A DNA stretch of 64,000 nucleotides from Cohnella cholangitidis. Lineage in GTDB: Bacteria; Bacillota; Bacilli; Paenibacillales; Paenibacillaceae. Positions 58,052 to 64,000 of this stretch are shown in pieces (within the stretch, counting starts at the first letter, position 1; every line of letters begins with the position of its first letter). The stretch spans positions 2,753,501 through 2,817,500 of the forward strand of contig NZ_CP041969.1 in NCBI RefSeq assembly GCF_014107495.1, written 5' to 3'. The notes beneath the pieces were generated by a model that was not told where the DNA came from, searched no databases, and saw nothing but the letters and a program-made list of their open reading frames with translations. A program made the translations under genes and the position numbers.

Positions 58052-58325
58052 CTATCTGAGTTGTATTTATCGTTTCGGGATATGAATTGTTCGGAATATA
58101 ATATTAATTTCGGTTAACTGAGATCAGTTTTTGAACCTATTTAAATCTTAATCCCTGTTGTTTCCCGAGTCCACATGCCGAGAGCTTATATAATCTAGCA
58201 AAGGCGAGGTTCAGATAGGCCGTCAAGTATGTTCCTTTGGAAGCCGTACTGTCATATTCGCAGAGAGGCTCTTCATACCTTTTAATATATCTTAACGACT
58301 GGCATCCGGCATGGGAGGTAGAGAA

Positions 58326-59687
58326 ATGAACGAGAACAATGGAAATCGCCCCAACCAACGGTCGGGAGATGCTCCTGCTGCTTTTCATTCGCAGACGGTT
58401 GGAGAACGAGGCCCCGTATTGGAACAGGACAACGTTCTGCATGAAACGCTGGAGACGTTCATCCATGCGAAATTGATGGAAAGGCCCGTGCATGTCAAAG
58501 GCTATGGCGCATTCGGCTACTTTCAGACCGTTAATGCCATGACGCCTTACACGCAGCTCTGTTTCTTGCAAAATCCGGGCCAGCAAGTCCCCGTCGCGGT
58601 AAGATTCTCCTTGGCCGTCAGCAACAAAGGCACGCCGGATACTTCCCGCAACGTGCGCGGATTCGCCACCAAGTTCTATACGGATCATGGAGTATTCGAT
58701 CTTGTCTGCAACCATATCCCCGTTTTCTCCGTCCGGGACGCCATCCGCTTTCCGGAGTCTATCAAGGCCTTCCTGCCGTCGCCCGTCAACAACCTCATCG
58801 ATCCCGAACGATTCTGGAGCTTCGTCGCCCGAGCGCCGGAATCCACTCACTTTCTCGTCTGGCTATACTCCGACGCGGGTACCGTCAACAGTTTTCGCCG
58901 CATTCCGGGCCACGGCGTCAATACATACGTCTGGAAAAACGCGCAAGGCGTCCGCACTTACGTAAAGTACCATTGGATGCCTCTTGCGGGCGTGCAGTAC
59001 ATTGACCGTCAGGAAGCTGCCCGGCTCGCCTGCGAGAATCCGGATTATGCCGGCAAGGACTTATTCGATACGTTAGCCGCGGGCAAGACCGTCGAATACG
59101 GGCTTTACGTGCAGCTGATGAACCCCCAAGACGAGTCCTCTCTCCCGTACGATCCGTTGGACGATACCAAGATATGGGATGAGCGCCAATATCCCTTGAT
59201 CCCGGTCGGGAGGTTGGTATTAACCCGCAATCCGGATAATTATATGGAGCAAGTAGAGAAGTTGGCTTTCTCCCCTTCCAACCTGCTGGAAGGCGCGGAG
59301 TTGTCGGACGACAAGATGCTGCAGGGGCGCGCTAATATTTACTGGGATTCGCAGCGCCGGCGGCTCGGTCCGGACTTCCGCAAGATTCCGATCAATCATC
59401 AGCAGAATTGGACGCCCGAATCCCTTGTGACCAGCGGCAACGGGAGATTCGTGGAAGGACGCCTCGTTCGGTCAGACTTGCCCAAGCAAGACGACTTCGC
59501 GCAAGCCGGTCAGTATTATCGCGCTCTTCCGCCGTTGCAGCAAGATCGCTTGGCAGATAACTTGGCCGCCGATCTTGCCGGCATATCCCCCGAGACGCAA
59601 ACGATCGTGCTCGGCTACCTGTATCAGGCATCCGCCGAGCTTGGGGAACGGGTGGCTCGAATGATCCGCACGCAAGCCAAGGAATAA
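58326..59687 (+). CDS. catalase (heme)
   Basis: Heme catalase of 453 residues converting H2O2 to water and oxygen. The distal His is in RPVHVKGYGAFGYF, the Ser/Arg stretch in VRFSLAVSNKGTPDTSRNVR, and the distal Asn in LVCNHIPVFSVRD (usual GNNTP varied to CNHIP, with FF reduced to FS). The proximal heme ligand Tyr lies in ANIYWDSQRRRLGPDF. It is somewhat shorter than large-subunit catalases and ends near the small-subunit length. GGGAGG precedes ATG 58326. Standalone gene. Confidence 0.93.
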   Translation: MNENNGNRPNQRSGDAPAAFHSQTVGERGPVLEQDNVLHETLETFIHAKLMERPVHVKGYGAFGYFQTVNAMTPYTQLCFLQNPGQQVPVAVRFSLAVSNKGTPDTSRNVRGFATKFYTDHGVFDLVCNHIPVFSVRDAIRFPESIKAFLPSPVNNLIDPERFWSFVARAPESTHFLVWLYSDAGTVNSFRRIPGHGVNTYVWKNAQGVRTYVKYHWMPLAGVQYIDRQEAARLACENPDYAGKDLFDTLAAGKTVEYGLYVQLMNPQDESSLPYDPLDDTKIWDERQYPLIPVGRLVLTRNPDNYMEQVEKLAFSPSNLLEGAELSDDKMLQGRANIYWDSQRRRLGPDFRKIPINHQQNWTPESLVTSGNGRFVEGRLVRSDLPKQDDFAQAGQYYRALPPLQQDRLADNLAADLAGISPETQTIVLGYLYQASAELGERVARMIRTQAKE

Positions 59688-59814: not shown

Positions 59815-61026
59815 TTATTTCCCATTGCGGGCAGCCGACCGGCGCTCCGATAGCAAGCTGCCTACTCCAACCGTTAGAGCCAGGCCTACTAGAATTGCCC
59901 CTACCCAAGGAAGCGAAGAAAGCGACAGATGGGTAATGACCCACCCGCCGACAAAAGCGCCGACGGCATTGCCGAGATTGCCCGCGGAATGGCTGGATGT
60001 GGACGCTAAAGCGGGAGCGCCCTTGGCGATGCTCATGATGCGAACCTGCAAACCCGGCATGACGGCAAAAGAACCCGCTCCCCAGATGAATATCGTAACG
60101 ATGGCGGCGAACTCGCTGCGAATCGTAAACGTTAGCGCCGTTAGAGCCACGACGATGACGACGTAAGTGCCAAGAATCGAAGGCATCAGCTTCCAATCCG
60201 CCAATTTGCCGCCGATGATATTGCCGACGGTAACGCCTATGCCGAATAGAATCAGGATCCAGGTAACGCTGTGCTCAGCAAAGCCCGTAATATCGACAAG
60301 CAGCGGCGTAATGTACGTAAAGACAGCGAACAACCCCGCGTTGCCTAGCGCGCATATGAGCAGGAACACCATCAATTTAGGATTAACCAGCGCCGCGACC
60401 TGCTGCCGGATGCCGGTCGCCTTCTCCTGCGTTAAGCGCGGAATCAAGAGGACAATGCCGATCAAGGCGATAACGCCCATCAGCGCGATGGCTCCGAAGG
60501 AAGCGCGCCATCCCATATTCTGCCCGATGTAGGTGCCGAGCGGCACGCCTAGAATATTAGCGATGGTGAGTCCGGCCATCATAACGGATACGGCGCCCGC
60601 CCGTTTGTCGGGACGTACTAAGTTGGCCGCGATCACCGCTCCGACCCCGAAGAAGGTGCCGTGAGTTAGGGCGGTGAGCACCCGCGCGCCCATAAGAACG
60701 GCGTAGTTCGGAGCGATCACGGATACGCCGTTGCCCGCAATAAACAGCAGCATGAGTAAGATCAGCAGCTTCTTCTGCGGAATCCGATGCGTCAGCACGG
60801 TTAGAATAGGCGCTCCCACGGCTACGCCAAGCGCATACATCGTGATTAGCTGTCCGGCCGCGGAAATGGTTACGTTCAAATCTTCAGCTACATTAGGTAG
60901 AATGCCCATAATAACGAATTCGGTCATGCCGATGGCGAAGGCACCGACCGTTAACGAGAGCAGCGAGACGGGGAAGCTTGTCTTAGCCGTTCCCGGACGA
61001 CGATTGGCATGTTGCGTAAATTCCAT
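59815..61026 (-). CDS. MFS transporter (AraJ/YdhL-like)
   Basis: Twelve-helix major facilitator of 403 residues, starting MEFTQHANRRPG and continuing FPVSLLSLTVGAFAIGMTEF. The loop 2-3 motif THRIPQKKLLILL is a weak form of motif A. FIG-type segments place it in the DHA1 AraJ/PucK/YdhL group. ATG 61026 has only a distant AAAGG; TTG 61050 is the alternative. The gene is divergent from the norspermidine region. Substrate unknown. Confidence 0.9.
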   Translation of the reverse strand: MEFTQHANRRPGTAKTSFPVSLLSLTVGAFAIGMTEFVIMGILPNVAEDLNVTISAAGQLITMYALGVAVGAPILTVLTHRIPQKKLLILLMLLFIAGNGVSVIAPNYAVLMGARVLTALTHGTFFGVGAVIAANLVRPDKRAGAVSVMMAGLTIANILGVPLGTYIGQNMGWRASFGAIALMGVIALIGIVLLIPRLTQEKATGIRQQVAALVNPKLMVFLLICALGNAGLFAVFTYITPLLVDITGFAEHSVTWILILFGIGVTVGNIIGGKLADWKLMPSILGTYVVIVVALTALTFTIRSEFAAIVTIFIWGAGSFAVMPGLQVRIMSIAKGAPALASTSSHSAGNLGNAVGAFVGGWVITHLSLSSLPWVGAILVGLALTVGVGSLLSERRSAARNGK

Positions 61027-61181
61027 GATGCTAAGCTTCAATCCTTTCAATCTGACGAGTCATGTAAAGGCGCAGGTTAATCTTGCAGCAATTCCACTAA
61101 GTGCATTCTACTAGAAGAACCGCAAATCGTCTCAAAGAAATATCATCATCCTAGCCTCAAAAAATAAATTGGGATTTCCTA

Positions 61182-61209
61182 TTGCAATATGTGAACATTG
61201 TGCTAATAT
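61182..61209 (+). promoter_or_regulatory. promoter of the candidate structured RNA
   Basis: TTGCAA (61182-61187), 16 bases, then TAATAT (61204-61209), with the extended -10 TG (TGCTAATAT). It points into the multi-stem region upstream of the norspermidine genes. Confidence 0.5.
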
Positions 61210-61214
61210 AGGTA

Positions 61215-61557
61215 CGTGGTAAGTGAGAAAGCCGATATTCAATATATCTGGATCTTTGAAGCAGATAATTTTTGACCACATCTCATCCGGGATGTTAAGG
61301 CCATACGGACAGCCGGGTCAAATGCCGATTGGCAACTTTAGTTGCCTTATTGATTGAGTTAAAAGCTCAAATTTTATAAGTTGGTTACTTTACAACCGGT
61401 GCATCCGCACACAACTTGTGAAACGGTCAATAAGAGTGGTAAAAGTGATTATTTGCTATATAGACTCTGATCCTTCAATGGTATATTCCGAATATTAAAG
61501 AGCTTTCTTGCAGAAGTATGTCCACTACTTTTGTAACAGGGTCTGCCTGTGCTTTTT
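61215..61557 (+). ncRNA. candidate structured RNA / leader upstream of the norspermidine genes
   Basis: About 340 bases without coding support but rich in short stems. These are TATCTG/CAGATA (61246-61266), TTTGACC/GGTCAAA (61271-61322) enclosing CATC/GATG and GGC/GCC, GGCAAC-TTTA-GTTGCC (61331-61346), TTGAG/CTCAA (61354-61370), ACCG/CGGT (61395-61427) enclosing GTGC/GCAC and CACAA/TTGTG, AGAGT/ACTCT, and AAGTA/TACTT. It ends in ACAGG-GTCTG-CCTGT followed by GCTTTTT. GGTCAA occurs twice (61316, 61425) and could pair alternatively with the single TTGACC. It may be a free RNA or the regulatory leader of the genes at 61.7 kb. I cannot match it to a known class. Confidence 0.45.
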
Positions 61558-61574
61558 AATATGTGATTATATCT

Positions 61575-61620
61575 AAAGCAAGTGTGATGCGCGAACAAGC
61601 GTATTTGCATTTGCTTTTTT
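61575..61620 (+). terminator. second terminator before the norspermidine genes
   Basis: AAAGCAA (61575-61581) pairs with TTGCTTT (61611-61617), with an inner TGCGC/GCGTA pairing and six T at 61615-61620. It leaves 112 bp to the start of the carboxynorspermidine synthase gene, in which I found no clear promoter. Read-through control is therefore plausible. Confidence 0.7.
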
Positions 61621-61732
61621 GCGTATAGGACGTTTCCTGCAAATAATTGCGAGTGATGGATACTTAGCGCGTCAGGTTGTTACGGAATTCTTCTTACTCT
61701 TCAAAAAACCACTAGGTTAGGGGCTAAAAACA

Positions 61733-62971
61733 ATGAGCAAAGCACTAATTATCGGTTGCGGCGGCGTAGCATCGGTAACCATCCACAAATGCGTTCAAAA
61801 CAGCGACGTATTCGAAGAAATTTGTATCGCAAGTCGTACGAAGTCTAAATGCGACGAATTGAAAGCCAAACTCGATGGCGGTAAAACGAAAATTACCACG
61901 GCACAAGTCGATGCCAACAATGTGGACGAGCTCATCGCGTTGATTGAAGAAGTAAAACCGGATATCGTCATGAACCTCGCGCTGCCCTACCAGGATCTCA
62001 CCATCATGGATGCCTGCCTGGCAACGAAAACCCATTACATGGATACGGCTAACTATGAGCCGGAAGACACGGCGAAATTCGAATACAAATGGCAGTGGGA
62101 CTACCGCGAGCGCTTCGAAAAAGCGGGAATCACGGCTCTTCTGGGCAGCGGATTCGACCCTGGCGTAACAGGCGTATTCTCCGCCTACGCTCTCAAGCAC
62201 TACTTCGATGAAATCGAATATATCGACATTCTGGACTGCAATGGCGGCGACCATGGTTATCCGTTCGCAACGAACTTCAACCCTGAAATCAACATCCGCG
62301 AGGTTTCGGCTAACGGAAGATATTGGGAGAACGGCGAATGGATCGAAACCAAGCCAATGGAAATCAAGCGCGTGTATAACTTCGCCGAAGTCGGCGAGAA
62401 GGACATGTACCTGCTCTACCATGAAGAACTTGAATCCCTTGCGGTAAACATGCCGGGACTGAAGCGCATTCGCTTCTTCATGACCTTCGGCCAAAGCTAT
62501 CTGACACACCTCAAGGCGTTGGAGAACGTAGGAATGACTTCGATCGAACCGATCGAATTCGAAGGAAAGAAAATCATTCCACTCCAGTTCTTGAAGGCCG
62601 TATTGCCGGATCCGGCGTCGCTCGGACCGCGCACGGTGGGCAAAACGAACATCGGCTGCATTTTCCAAGGCAAAAAAGACGGTCAAGCTAAAACGTACTA
62701 TGTCTACAACGTTTGCGACCACCAAGAGTGCTATAAAGAAGTGGGCTCCCAAGCGATCTCCTATACGACAGGCGTTCCTGCCATGATCGGAGCTGCTATG
62801 GTTCTGACCGGAAAATGGAATAAGCCAGGCGTATACAATGTTGAAGAGTTCGATCCGGATCCGTTCATGGAAGAGTTGAACAAATGGGGCCTTCCATGGG
62901 TAGAAGACTTTAACCCGGTGCTTGTCGACGAAGAGCACGCACACACTAAACAGCCGGCGTTGGTTCGATAA
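61733..62971 (+). CDS. carboxynorspermidine synthase (saccharopine dehydrogenase-like)
   Basis: NADPH-dependent enzyme of 412 residues that condenses aspartate semialdehyde with diaminopropane or putrescine to carboxynorspermidine or carboxyspermidine. The Rossmann entry is LIIGCGGVASVTIHKCV. Family features are GSGFDPGVTGVFSAYALKHY, YPFATNFNPEINIREVS and the C-terminal SYTTGVPAMIGAAMVLTGKW. AGGGG lies nine bases before ATG 61733. nspC follows directly, so the pair makes norspermidine/spermidine by the aspartate-semialdehyde route instead of S-adenosylmethionine decarboxylase. Regulation may come from the structured leader. Confidence 0.94.
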   Translation: MSKALIIGCGGVASVTIHKCVQNSDVFEEICIASRTKSKCDELKAKLDGGKTKITTAQVDANNVDELIALIEEVKPDIVMNLALPYQDLTIMDACLATKTHYMDTANYEPEDTAKFEYKWQWDYRERFEKAGITALLGSGFDPGVTGVFSAYALKHYFDEIEYIDILDCNGGDHGYPFATNFNPEINIREVSANGRYWENGEWIETKPMEIKRVYNFAEVGEKDMYLLYHEELESLAVNMPGLKRIRFFMTFGQSYLTHLKALENVGMTSIEPIEFEGKKIIPLQFLKAVLPDPASLGPRTVGKTNIGCIFQGKKDGQAKTYYVYNVCDHQECYKEVGSQAISYTTGVPAMIGAAMVLTGKWNKPGVYNVEEFDPDPFMEELNKWGLPWVEDFNPVLVDEEHAHTKQPALVR

Positions 62972-62972
62972 G

Positions 62973-64000
62973 ATGCGCTTTGACGAATTACCCACGCCTT
63001 GTTTCGTCGTCGATGAAGCACTCATCGAGAACAATCTGAAAATCCTCGGCGGCGTCATGCAGCGTACAGGGGCAAAGATTGTATTAGCCCAAAAGGCATT
63101 CTCTATGACAGCGATGTATCCCCTTATTGGAAAATATCTTAACGGCACGACGGCCAGCGGCTTATTCGAAGCTCGCTTGGGTTACGAGGAAATGGGCAAA
63201 GAAACTCATGTCTTTGCCCCTGCCTATCGTGAAGACGAAATCGACGAAATTATTTCGATCTGCGATCACATTATCTTTAACTCGTTTTCCCAATTGGAAA
63301 AGTTCAAAGATAAAGCCCTTCTAGCCGGCAGGAAAGTCGGCCTCCGCATCAACCCGGAGTGCTCCACCCAGGTCGGGCATGAAATTTATGATCCATGCTC
63401 GCCAGGTTCACGTTTCGGCGCAAAACGCGACCAAGTGCGTCCGGAGCTGCTGGAAGGCGTGACCGGCCTGCACTTCCATACGCTTTGCCAGCAAAACTCG
63501 GACGACTTAGAAACTACGCTGAATGCCGTGGAAGAAAAGTTCGGCGAGTGGCTGCCGCGGATGGAGTGGATTAACTTTGGCGGCGGGCACCACATCACAA
63601 GAGAAGATTACGATTTAGCAACACTCGAGGCATGCATCAACAGAATGCAGGATAAGTACGGTCTCGAAGTGTATCTAGAGCCGGGCGAAGCCATTGCGCT
63701 CAACGCAGGCTATCTGATCACCTCTGTCCTTGATATTCATCAGAACGGAATGGAGATTGCCATACTCGACACGTCGGCTACCTGCCATATGCCGGATGTG
63801 CTCGAAATGCCTTATCGTCCGCCGCTTCTTGGTTCAGGCGAGCCTGGCGAGAAGCCCTTCACGTACCGCCTTGGCGGGCAAACCTGCCTGACAGGCGACG
63901 TGATCGGCGATTATTCGTTCGATCAACCGTTAAAGAGCGGCGATAGACTCGTTTTTGGCGATATGGCGATTTACTCCATGGTCAAAACCAACACCTTCAA
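62973..64000 (+). CDS. nspC: carboxynorspermidine decarboxylase, 5' part (partial)
   Basis: First 342 codons of a PLP-dependent fold-III decarboxylase cut by the window end. It starts MRFDELPTPCFVVDE one base after the previous stop, with no separate ribosome site, so translation is coupled. The PLP Lys is in VLAQKAFSM, the glycine loop is WINFGGGHHIT, EPGEAIALNAG holds the Glu-Pro-Gly motif, and LDTSATCHMPDV precedes the substrate loop. The second active-site Cys/Asp region falls in GGQTCLTGDVIG. Removes CO2 from carboxynorspermidine to yield norspermidine, or spermidine from the carboxyspermidine form. Confidence 0.95.
   Translation, partial: MRFDELPTPCFVVDEALIENNLKILGGVMQRTGAKIVLAQKAFSMTAMYPLIGKYLNGTTASGLFEARLGYEEMGKETHVFAPAYREDEIDEIISICDHIIFNSFSQLEKFKDKALLAGRKVGLRINPECSTQVGHEIYDPCSPGSRFGAKRDQVRPELLEGVTGLHFHTLCQQNSDDLETTLNAVEEKFGEWLPRMEWINFGGGHHITREDYDLATLEACINRMQDKYGLEVYLEPGEAIALNAGYLITSVLDIHQNGMEIAILDTSATCHMPDVLEMPYRPPLLGSGEPGEKPFTYRLGGQTCLTGDVIGDYSFDQPLKSGDRLVFGDMAIYSMVKTNTF

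Follow-up and report, generated by a model that had tools for sequence, protein, structure and literature searches.

The stretch of DNA analysed here, called the window throughout, covers 64,000 nucleotides of the Cohnella cholangitidis genome and ends in two polyamine genes, one for a carboxynorspermidine synthase and the other nspC, which runs off the window (Table 1). The synthase also matches the NCBIfam equivalog model NF043000 with 414 bits, below the cutoff of 800. No further polyamine gene was evident in the next 9 kb of the genome upon inspection by eye of open reading frames of at least 120 amino acids. Upstream of the leader lie two genes whose products we take, from their protein sequences, to be an MFS efflux transporter (59815-61050, minus strand) and a catalase (58311-59687, plus strand); a link of these neighbours to polyamines is not evident.

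The leader extends from an extended -10 promoter (61199-61209) through to the start codon at 61733. The original prediction had described this promoter together with many perfect stems and duplicated GGTCAA segments facing a single TTGACC, and all of these are present. The extended -10 element TGTGCTAATAT can be read directly, preceded by a 16-nt spacer and a weak -35 element (TTGCAA, 61182-61187), many perfect stems follow, GGTCAA occurs at 61316-61321 and 61425-61430, and TTGACC at 61272-61277. Transcription is expected to start near 61216. A consensus promoter scan of the window did not list the element at 61199-61209, because its -35 hexamer is weak. Among the related loci described below, a pair resembling -35 and -10 elements was found upstream in 127 of the 172 tested, with 53.4 expected from letter shuffles.

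Table 1. Features of the leader and of the genes that follow it, in window coordinates
Feature	Position	Strand	Evidence
Promoter: -35 TTGCAA, extended -10 TGTGCTAATAT	61182-61209	+	sequence read directly
P0 5' arm AGAAAGCCGATATTC; can pair with 61490-61507 (Bacilli-type members)	61226-61240	+	duplex energies
P1 5' arm GCAGATAAU	61261-61269	+	covaries with 61448-61456; present in 4 of 5 window folds
SpF59/ldcC domain (RF02440), peripheral and optional	61273-61328	+	71.5 bits, E 6.7e-11
Hairpin GGCAAC-UUUA-GUUGCC	61331-61346	+	covariation in 69 sequences
Main 3' domain	61347-61433	+	alignment pairing; window folds
Predicted antiterminator strand CAACUUGU, in aptamer helix, complementary to terminator 5' arm	61412-61419	+	duplex energies, two locus sets
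H-type pseudoknot P1/P13	61433-61468	+	pairing and covariation tests
Switching hairpin of Bacilli-type members, GAAUAUUAAAGAGC ... GCUUUUUAAUAU	61490-61562	+	-24.9 kcal/mol; terminator-like in two scans
Intrinsic terminator, 5' arm AGCAAGUGUGAUGCG complementary to antiterminator strand	61576-61619	+	-21.4 kcal/mol
Carboxynorspermidine synthase gene (saccharopine-dehydrogenase fold)	61733-62971	+	Pfam PF03435, PF16653 above cutoffs
nspC, carboxynorspermidine decarboxylase, runs off window	62973-64000	+	TIGR01047, 448.8 bits, cutoff 409

RF02440 as part of a larger RNA

The search of Rfam that had been proposed for this leader was run with cmscan over the whole window. A single model of Rfam 15, RF02440 (SpF59_sRNA), exceeded its cutoff (37.2 bits), and no housekeeping RNA was returned. 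The match takes in model positions 1-54 and agrees with the core of the family almost letter for letter, so that the earlier view of an RNA outside any known family does not hold for this segment. The leader outside 61273-61328, the 3' core included, had no cmscan match over cutoff. The covariance models of T-box, FMN, lysine and other Rfam cis-regulators likewise gave no over-cutoff match in the window, which speaks against a known riboswitch, T-box or FMN element, and a ClpQY_promoter match was disregarded as it was below cutoff (18.7 bits against 42).

RF02440 was found in 16 of 60 relatives and in 31 of 398 Bacilli genomes; the resulting set of 45 loci comprises the window's own, those of 15 further genomes of the genus or order and those of the Bacilli sample. 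All 45 contain a 3' pattern, TATTGAT...ATTTTATRAGTT, that played no role in their collection. Because of this agreement and of the E value of 6.7e-11, the window match goes beyond chance. In a species collection the 3' pattern was found in at least 120 records, the hosts among the matches listed being Paenibacillus, Neobacillus, Heyndrickxia coagulans, Streptococcus suis, Blautia wexlerae, Roseburia inulinivorans, Faecalibacterium prausnitzii, Acetobacterium and Phascolarctobacterium. Those hosts among the matches listed that carry a named group all presumably belong to Bacillota, and the core occurs in Bacilli, Clostridia and Phascolarctobacterium. Viral contigs gave no match to the 3' pattern, and a viral origin was therefore rejected.

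Nineteen of the loci with the 3' pattern were scanned against Rfam. Sixteen match RF02440, and three (L046, L087 and L113) carry the RNA without any Rfam match. The CGGACAG loop is missing in 33 of the 161 loci with room for it, and the whole SpF59 domain, judged by eye, in about 20 of these 161, where the P1 arm directly precedes the next hairpin. Loci without the domain keep the core and, where the contig is long enough, the association with a polyamine gene. Since about 20 loci lack the entire SpF59 domain, we conclude that RF02440 models a 54-nt peripheral, optional domain of an RNA of roughly 200 nt. Several Bacillaceae possess the domain with a replaced loop (by eye). CGGU-type loops instead of the CAUACGGACA loop were seen in L054, L079, L099, L107, L110, L118, L138 and L164, the named hosts being Bacillaceae-like. 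Direct reading of L079 revealed a change from CGGACA/UGCCG to CGGUA/UACCG, hinting at a pseudoknot between the loop and the 3' flank within RF02440.

A covariance model of the 3' domain, R1, was built from 71 of 156 parsed loci picked by redundancy, of which 69 were aligned and L069 and L087 left out. In the Bacilli sample R1 recovered the domain in 39 of 398 genomes, among them each of the 31 that have RF02440 as well as additional members of the genus to which L044 and L045 belong, and in a phylum sample in 25 of 398 genomes, with one match per genome; some of these matches, the window copy included, are members of R1 and match by construction. Some columns of the core are fixed by the pattern through which part of the loci had been found, and the locus set holds duplicates, such as L038 and L149, which probably stem from one genome.

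Four proteins encoded at these loci served as references for a same-strand search of the downstream sequence, which reached at most 2.85 kb (some 1.5 kb in the case of L001-L045); the identities of the four were verified by profile matches. A polyamine gene follows in 159 of 165 loci and in 159 of the 160 with enough downstream sequence. The nearest one encodes carboxynorspermidine synthase (70 loci), an Orn/Lys/Arg decarboxylase (61), SpeD (20) or PotA (8), and thus four different entries to polyamine supply share the RNA. Five of the six loci without a match have at most 113 bases left, and the sixth is L165. This is the sole locus with room for a polyamine gene that is not followed by one, and the reading frame behind it presumably encodes a peptidase. 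R1 does not require the search pattern used for the earlier loci, and those fetched with it from the phylum sample (L197-L217) are followed by a polyamine gene in 21 of 21 cases, the five weakest (L213-L217, E 1.8e-9 to 2.6e-5) included; at least two of the 21 (L197 and L203) may repeat earlier loci (L076 and L131). The comparison of homologous operons called for at the outset thus places the region upstream of polyamine operons. We conclude that the leader is a real and widespread cis-regulatory RNA of polyamine genes. As is expected of a riboswitch, it forms a conserved structured domain in the 5' untranslated region of metabolically coherent genes.

Fold of the core and the closing pseudoknot

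The main 3' domain consists of a helix between UUAUUGAU (61347-61354) and GUCAAUAA (61426-61433), the hairpin UGAG/CUCA, and a helix between UUUUAUAAGUUG (61372-61383) and CAACUUGUGAAA (61412-61423) with two inner hairpins. In the alignment of 69 sequences, 93.8% of the cells are paired in the proposed structure, compared with 90.8% after shuffling and at most 45.1% in slid versions. Thirteen pairs are changed on both sides versus 8.3 in shuffled alignments, none of 500 reaching 13, and the covariation score amounts to 0.131 versus 0.086 for shuffled and at most 0.055 for slid versions. In the hairpin at 61331-61346 all six pairs are changed on both sides and 85.5% of the cells are paired. The two long AU-rich helices have pairing support and, because they are almost invariant, hardly any covariation; the search pattern and the parsing had already set part of their columns. 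Covariation, the absence of which was to count against the original prediction, is present. Together with the homologues upstream of polyamine genes, it bears out the proposal that a structured leader precedes a norspermidine/spermidine operon and controls it by way of a terminator.

The RNA is closed by helix P1 (61261-61269 with 61448-61456). At positions 4-9 of P1, 220 of 318 cells were paired, whereas 2000 shuffles of the partners averaged 184.6 and never exceeded 206. This test drew on 53 distinct arm combinations from 114 of the 138 loci that have a recognised 3' end among 179 loci; 24 were dropped due to an unrecognisable arm, and some of the arms used are misplaced. An unanchored search, in which the longest run anywhere upstream was taken as the partner, often led to wrong places (mean run 8.5 versus 5.8 shuffled) and was given up for the anchored test. 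Around the 3' strand of P1 the sequence continues in the order P13 5' strand AGAGU (61433-61437), loop GGUAAAAGU, P1 3' strand AUUAUUUGC (61448-61456), loop UAUAUAG and P13 3' strand ACUCU (61464-61468). P13 crosses P1, resulting in an H-type pseudoknot with the conserved loops (G/A)GUAAAAGU and UAUAUAG. Compensated variants of P13 were read directly in L085 (AGAGC/GCUCU) and L214 (UGAGC/GCUCA).

When the window sequence was folded by itself at five transcript lengths, P1, both long helices and the SpF59 closing helix appeared in four. In the fifth (61213-61462), TTGACC pairs with the second GGTCAA, P1 is absent and the aptamer fold differs. Competition of the two GGTCAA copies for TTGACC had been part of the original prediction and is seen in this one fold. 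In the relatives the two copies reside in coexisting helices, the first closing the Rfam domain with TTGACC and the second pairing with UUAUUGAU, and the four other folds of the window show these same pairs. The alternative pairing means that competition could occur during transcription, yet not as the conserved state, and it may be a co-transcriptional folding intermediate.

The shortest members, L215 (1501-1667) and L216 (1501-1643), keep the pseudoknot strands, the CUUGUGAA segment and the SpeD gene and lack the UUAUUGAU and UUUUAUAAG strands; a terminator is predicted for L215 and none for L216. Since the pseudoknot strands persist in these loci when the others are gone, the comparison suggests that the pseudoknot is the functional heart of the RNA. 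L113, from Streptococcus gallinaceus, is followed by a decarboxylase gene, yet CUUGUGAA and a portion of the main helix are missing from its 3' domain; this RNA is possibly degenerate or a variant. A leader-peptide attenuator would contain a conserved, translated short reading frame with a ribosome binding site. One such short frame, from TTG at 61350 to TAA, is kept in 156 of 165 loci with a recognised segment, in sequence that is conserved anyway. It is lost in nine loci through changes in loop length, and a Shine-Dalgarno sequence before it was not visible by eye.

Proteins such as PyrR and TRAP drive termination through RNA binding in other systems, and since the core described here is larger than many aptamers, an RNA-binding protein instead of a small molecule might stabilise the fold and drive termination. 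We regard this as improbable, because the strong invariance and the conserved unpaired loops of the pseudoknot are in keeping with an aptamer, although this argument is indirect.

Terminators and alternative pairing

Two successive terminators had been predicted ahead of the synthase gene. The downstream one is a strong terminator (61576-61619), though absent from the listing of a simple terminator scan. The upstream one (61536-61550) needs qualification: it scores terminator-like in two scans and is, together with its U run, contained in a larger hairpin (61492-61562, -24.9 kcal/mol) in which the U run is paired. A terminator, defined as a stem of at least six pairs, below -6 kcal/mol and followed by a T run, is predicted for 81 of 86 non-redundant loci in the interval from the RNA to the gene; where gene coordinates were lacking, in about ten loci, the search covered the first 330 nt. 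None is predicted in L077, which ends early, L132, L135, L150 and L216. The terminator 5' arm contains CAAGT in 48 of the 86 loci, and the motif occurs anywhere in the spacer in 52, against 15.8 expected.

CAAGT is complementary to a strand of the aptamer, and duplex energies were calculated for the 14 nt of the aptamer ending in CUUGUG and the terminator 5' arm in 80 of 87 loci, namely those with CTTGTGAA and a terminator below -10 kcal/mol. The mean was -11.94 kcal/mol with the locus' own arm and -9.93 after exchange of arms between loci (best of 60 shuffles -10.43); arms with shuffled letters gave -4.79, and four other aptamer segments -1.4 to -6.6. A second set, 36 usable loci of 41 without a recognised 3' end and not thinned for redundancy, gave -9.56 for own arms and -7.10 for others' arms (best of 300 shuffles -8.39). 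Examples of such pairings are GCAGACUUG with CAAGUCUGC (L146), CAUCAUCU with AGAUGAUG (L106) and CAUCUUGU with GCAGGAUG (L045). Because the aptamer segments pair better with their own than with others' terminator arms, the predicted aptamer/terminator pairing covaries beyond the fixed CUUGU, and at the level of sequence comparison such a preference is the signature of mutually exclusive antiterminator and terminator. In L046, L058, L066 and L104, CGUC or GGUC stands just before ACUUG, and the terminator 5' arms carry GACG or GACC, not CAAG; here the terminator follows the variable strand of the aptamer. Pairing is weak in L129 (-1.7), L047 (-2.8), L131 (-3.0), L050 (-4.5), L103 and L143 (-5.0 each).

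In the window, forcing the 6-bp antiterminator pairing in a nested fold gave -112.1 kcal/mol versus -124.2 for the minimum-energy structure. Given this cost of 12.1 kcal/mol, the ON state could be reached only kinetically or with the aid of something outside the fold model. An expression platform with mutually exclusive pairings, the second hallmark of a riboswitch, is found by comparison of loci, whereas the energetics of the window alone disfavour the antiterminator. A further long-range pairing, P0 (61226-61240 with 61490-61507), was evaluated in 32 non-redundant loci of 38 of the Bacilli type and amounted to -18.7 kcal/mol for own and -16.5 for others' partners (best of 100 shuffles -17.5). 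In Bacilli-type members P0 competes with the hairpin 61490-61562.

Proposed attenuation and comparison with known systems

Cis-attenuation of the polyamine genes is well supported by these comparisons, and the leader is a likely candidate for riboswitch function. We consider it probable that it attenuates transcription in cis, in the most likely case as a riboswitch through which an abundant polyamine, with spermidine as first choice, shuts the operon off. Polymerase would first make the aptamer, consisting of the optional SpF59 domain, the multibranched 3' domain and the closing H-type pseudoknot. In a stable aptamer, CAACUUGUGAAA would stay paired with UUUUAUAAGUUG and CUUGUGAAA would be held in the helix, the downstream terminator would fold, and transcription would stop ahead of the gene. 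If the aptamer is not stabilised, the freed segment, a hairpin strand plus ACUUGU, would take the terminator 5' arm (GCAAGU...), no terminator could form and the operon would be transcribed.

Sensing of a polyamine is inferred from the association with polyamine genes and from the architecture of the RNA, which by the same reasoning would bind its ligand directly and respond by switching off. Spermidine is the common product of synthesis by way of carboxy(nor)spermidine, of synthesis through SpeD and of uptake by PotABCD. Because the different routes of the controlled genes converge on it, spermidine or a close analogue would be the simplest ligand, acting as an end-product repressor. Alternatively, the same attenuator might respond to a different pathway metabolite, be it putrescine, agmatine, cadaverine, lysine, arginine or a SAM derivative, or it might switch the operon on in the presence of a precursor, for instance putrescine. 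As a diamine is a substrate of carboxynorspermidine synthase, activation by a precursor is conceivable, yet the aptamer helix that holds the antiterminator strand points to an OFF response. As to other metabolites, the nearest polyamine gene varies among the loci, and SP_0916, an arginine decarboxylase of Streptococcus pneumoniae according to the part of PMC7531197 covered, makes agmatine; spermidine, in contrast, is the product that the synthesis routes and import have in common. All in all, we deem these alternatives unlikely, albeit worth keeping in mind, and retain spermidine-dependent attenuation as the preferred reading.

Polyamines bind RNA everywhere, and their selective sensing by RNA in cells has been disputed. 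If the proposed function is true, polyamine homeostasis would become directly testable in the bacteria that carry this class, which range over Bacilli, gut Clostridia and Phascolarctobacterium, a pneumococcal 'sRNA' would have to be reinterpreted as a regulatory leader, and structural biology would gain a new pseudoknotted, polyamine-responsive candidate, for which the L215 and L216 RNAs would be useful as a minimal construct. Known already is the 54-nt piece, as the streptococcal sRNA RF02440; the 3' core of the larger RNA is without an Rfam match over cutoff. It is full agreement over these 54 nt (71.5 bits) that ties the window RNA to RF02440, which also matches Streptococcus suis L124 and the similar L044 and L045 upstream of a decarboxylase gene. 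The family differs in covering the peripheral domain only and in being typed as an sRNA gene, and a riboswitch class of the kind proposed would have stayed hidden because Rfam models just this optional domain, as a streptococcal sRNA. The Rfam label 'ldcC RNA' indicates that a link to ldcC was drawn by someone earlier.

In S. pneumoniae TIGR4, the part of PMC2887815 covered describes SN20 between SP0915 and SP0916 (869478-869791, 318 nt), with promoter and terminator called and an FMN-switch-like function suggested from a short motif. The region is listed as F59, an 82-nt entry, in PMC3395615 and also appears in the review PMC4387999. SN20/F59/srn235 occupies the same intergenic place upstream of SP0916 and is likened here by position and published description; in the portions covered, that account is of an FMN-like switch and mentions neither polyamines nor attenuation. 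With its promoter and terminator, the 318-nt transcript fits a terminated leader. The name SpF59 sRNA implies a small RNA that acts in trans, and such an RNA would agree with the sRNA typing in Rfam and with the place of F59 among pneumococcal sRNAs (PMC3395615; entry 'Lung' in a table of PMC4387999, as far as covered). We judge it very improbable, as 159 of 160 loci preserve the placement and orientation towards a polyamine gene and the terminator covaries with its aptamer, constraints that a trans-acting RNA would not need; a short pneumococcal RNA is what a terminated leader would leave. The odc1 and potE motifs (PMC8632094) and the speF motif (told in PMC11477304) are likewise located near polyamine-related genes and, in the parts of these sources covered, are set apart from the window RNA by their descriptions, not by sequence comparison.

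The literature covered, in part through excerpts and with Weinberg et al. 2017 (doi 10.1093/nar/gkx699) outside it, contained no account of the full RNA or its function. One convincing spermidine riboswitch was found there, a SAM-I variant with a consensus from 13 representatives (Salvail et al. 2023, PMC10853860), which according to the sections covered turns transcription off by terminator/antiterminator exchange upstream of ldcC, speE and speB. Its mechanism resembles the one inferred for the window RNA, whereas fold, sequence and size differ. SAM-I models gave no match over gathering thresholds in the window or in the 19 relatives scanned; with the SAM-I fold and sequence core unmatched there, membership in that variant is ruled out. 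The leader may thus represent a second natural class of polyamine (spermidine) riboswitch, a reading to which we tentatively give not quite an even chance. Such a class would have a fold of its own, distinct from that of the SAM-I variant, and a far wider distribution. It would consist of a multibranched core within an H-type pseudoknot, joined to its terminator by way of a strand of the main helix, and would serve several synthesis routes as well as import across Bacillota.
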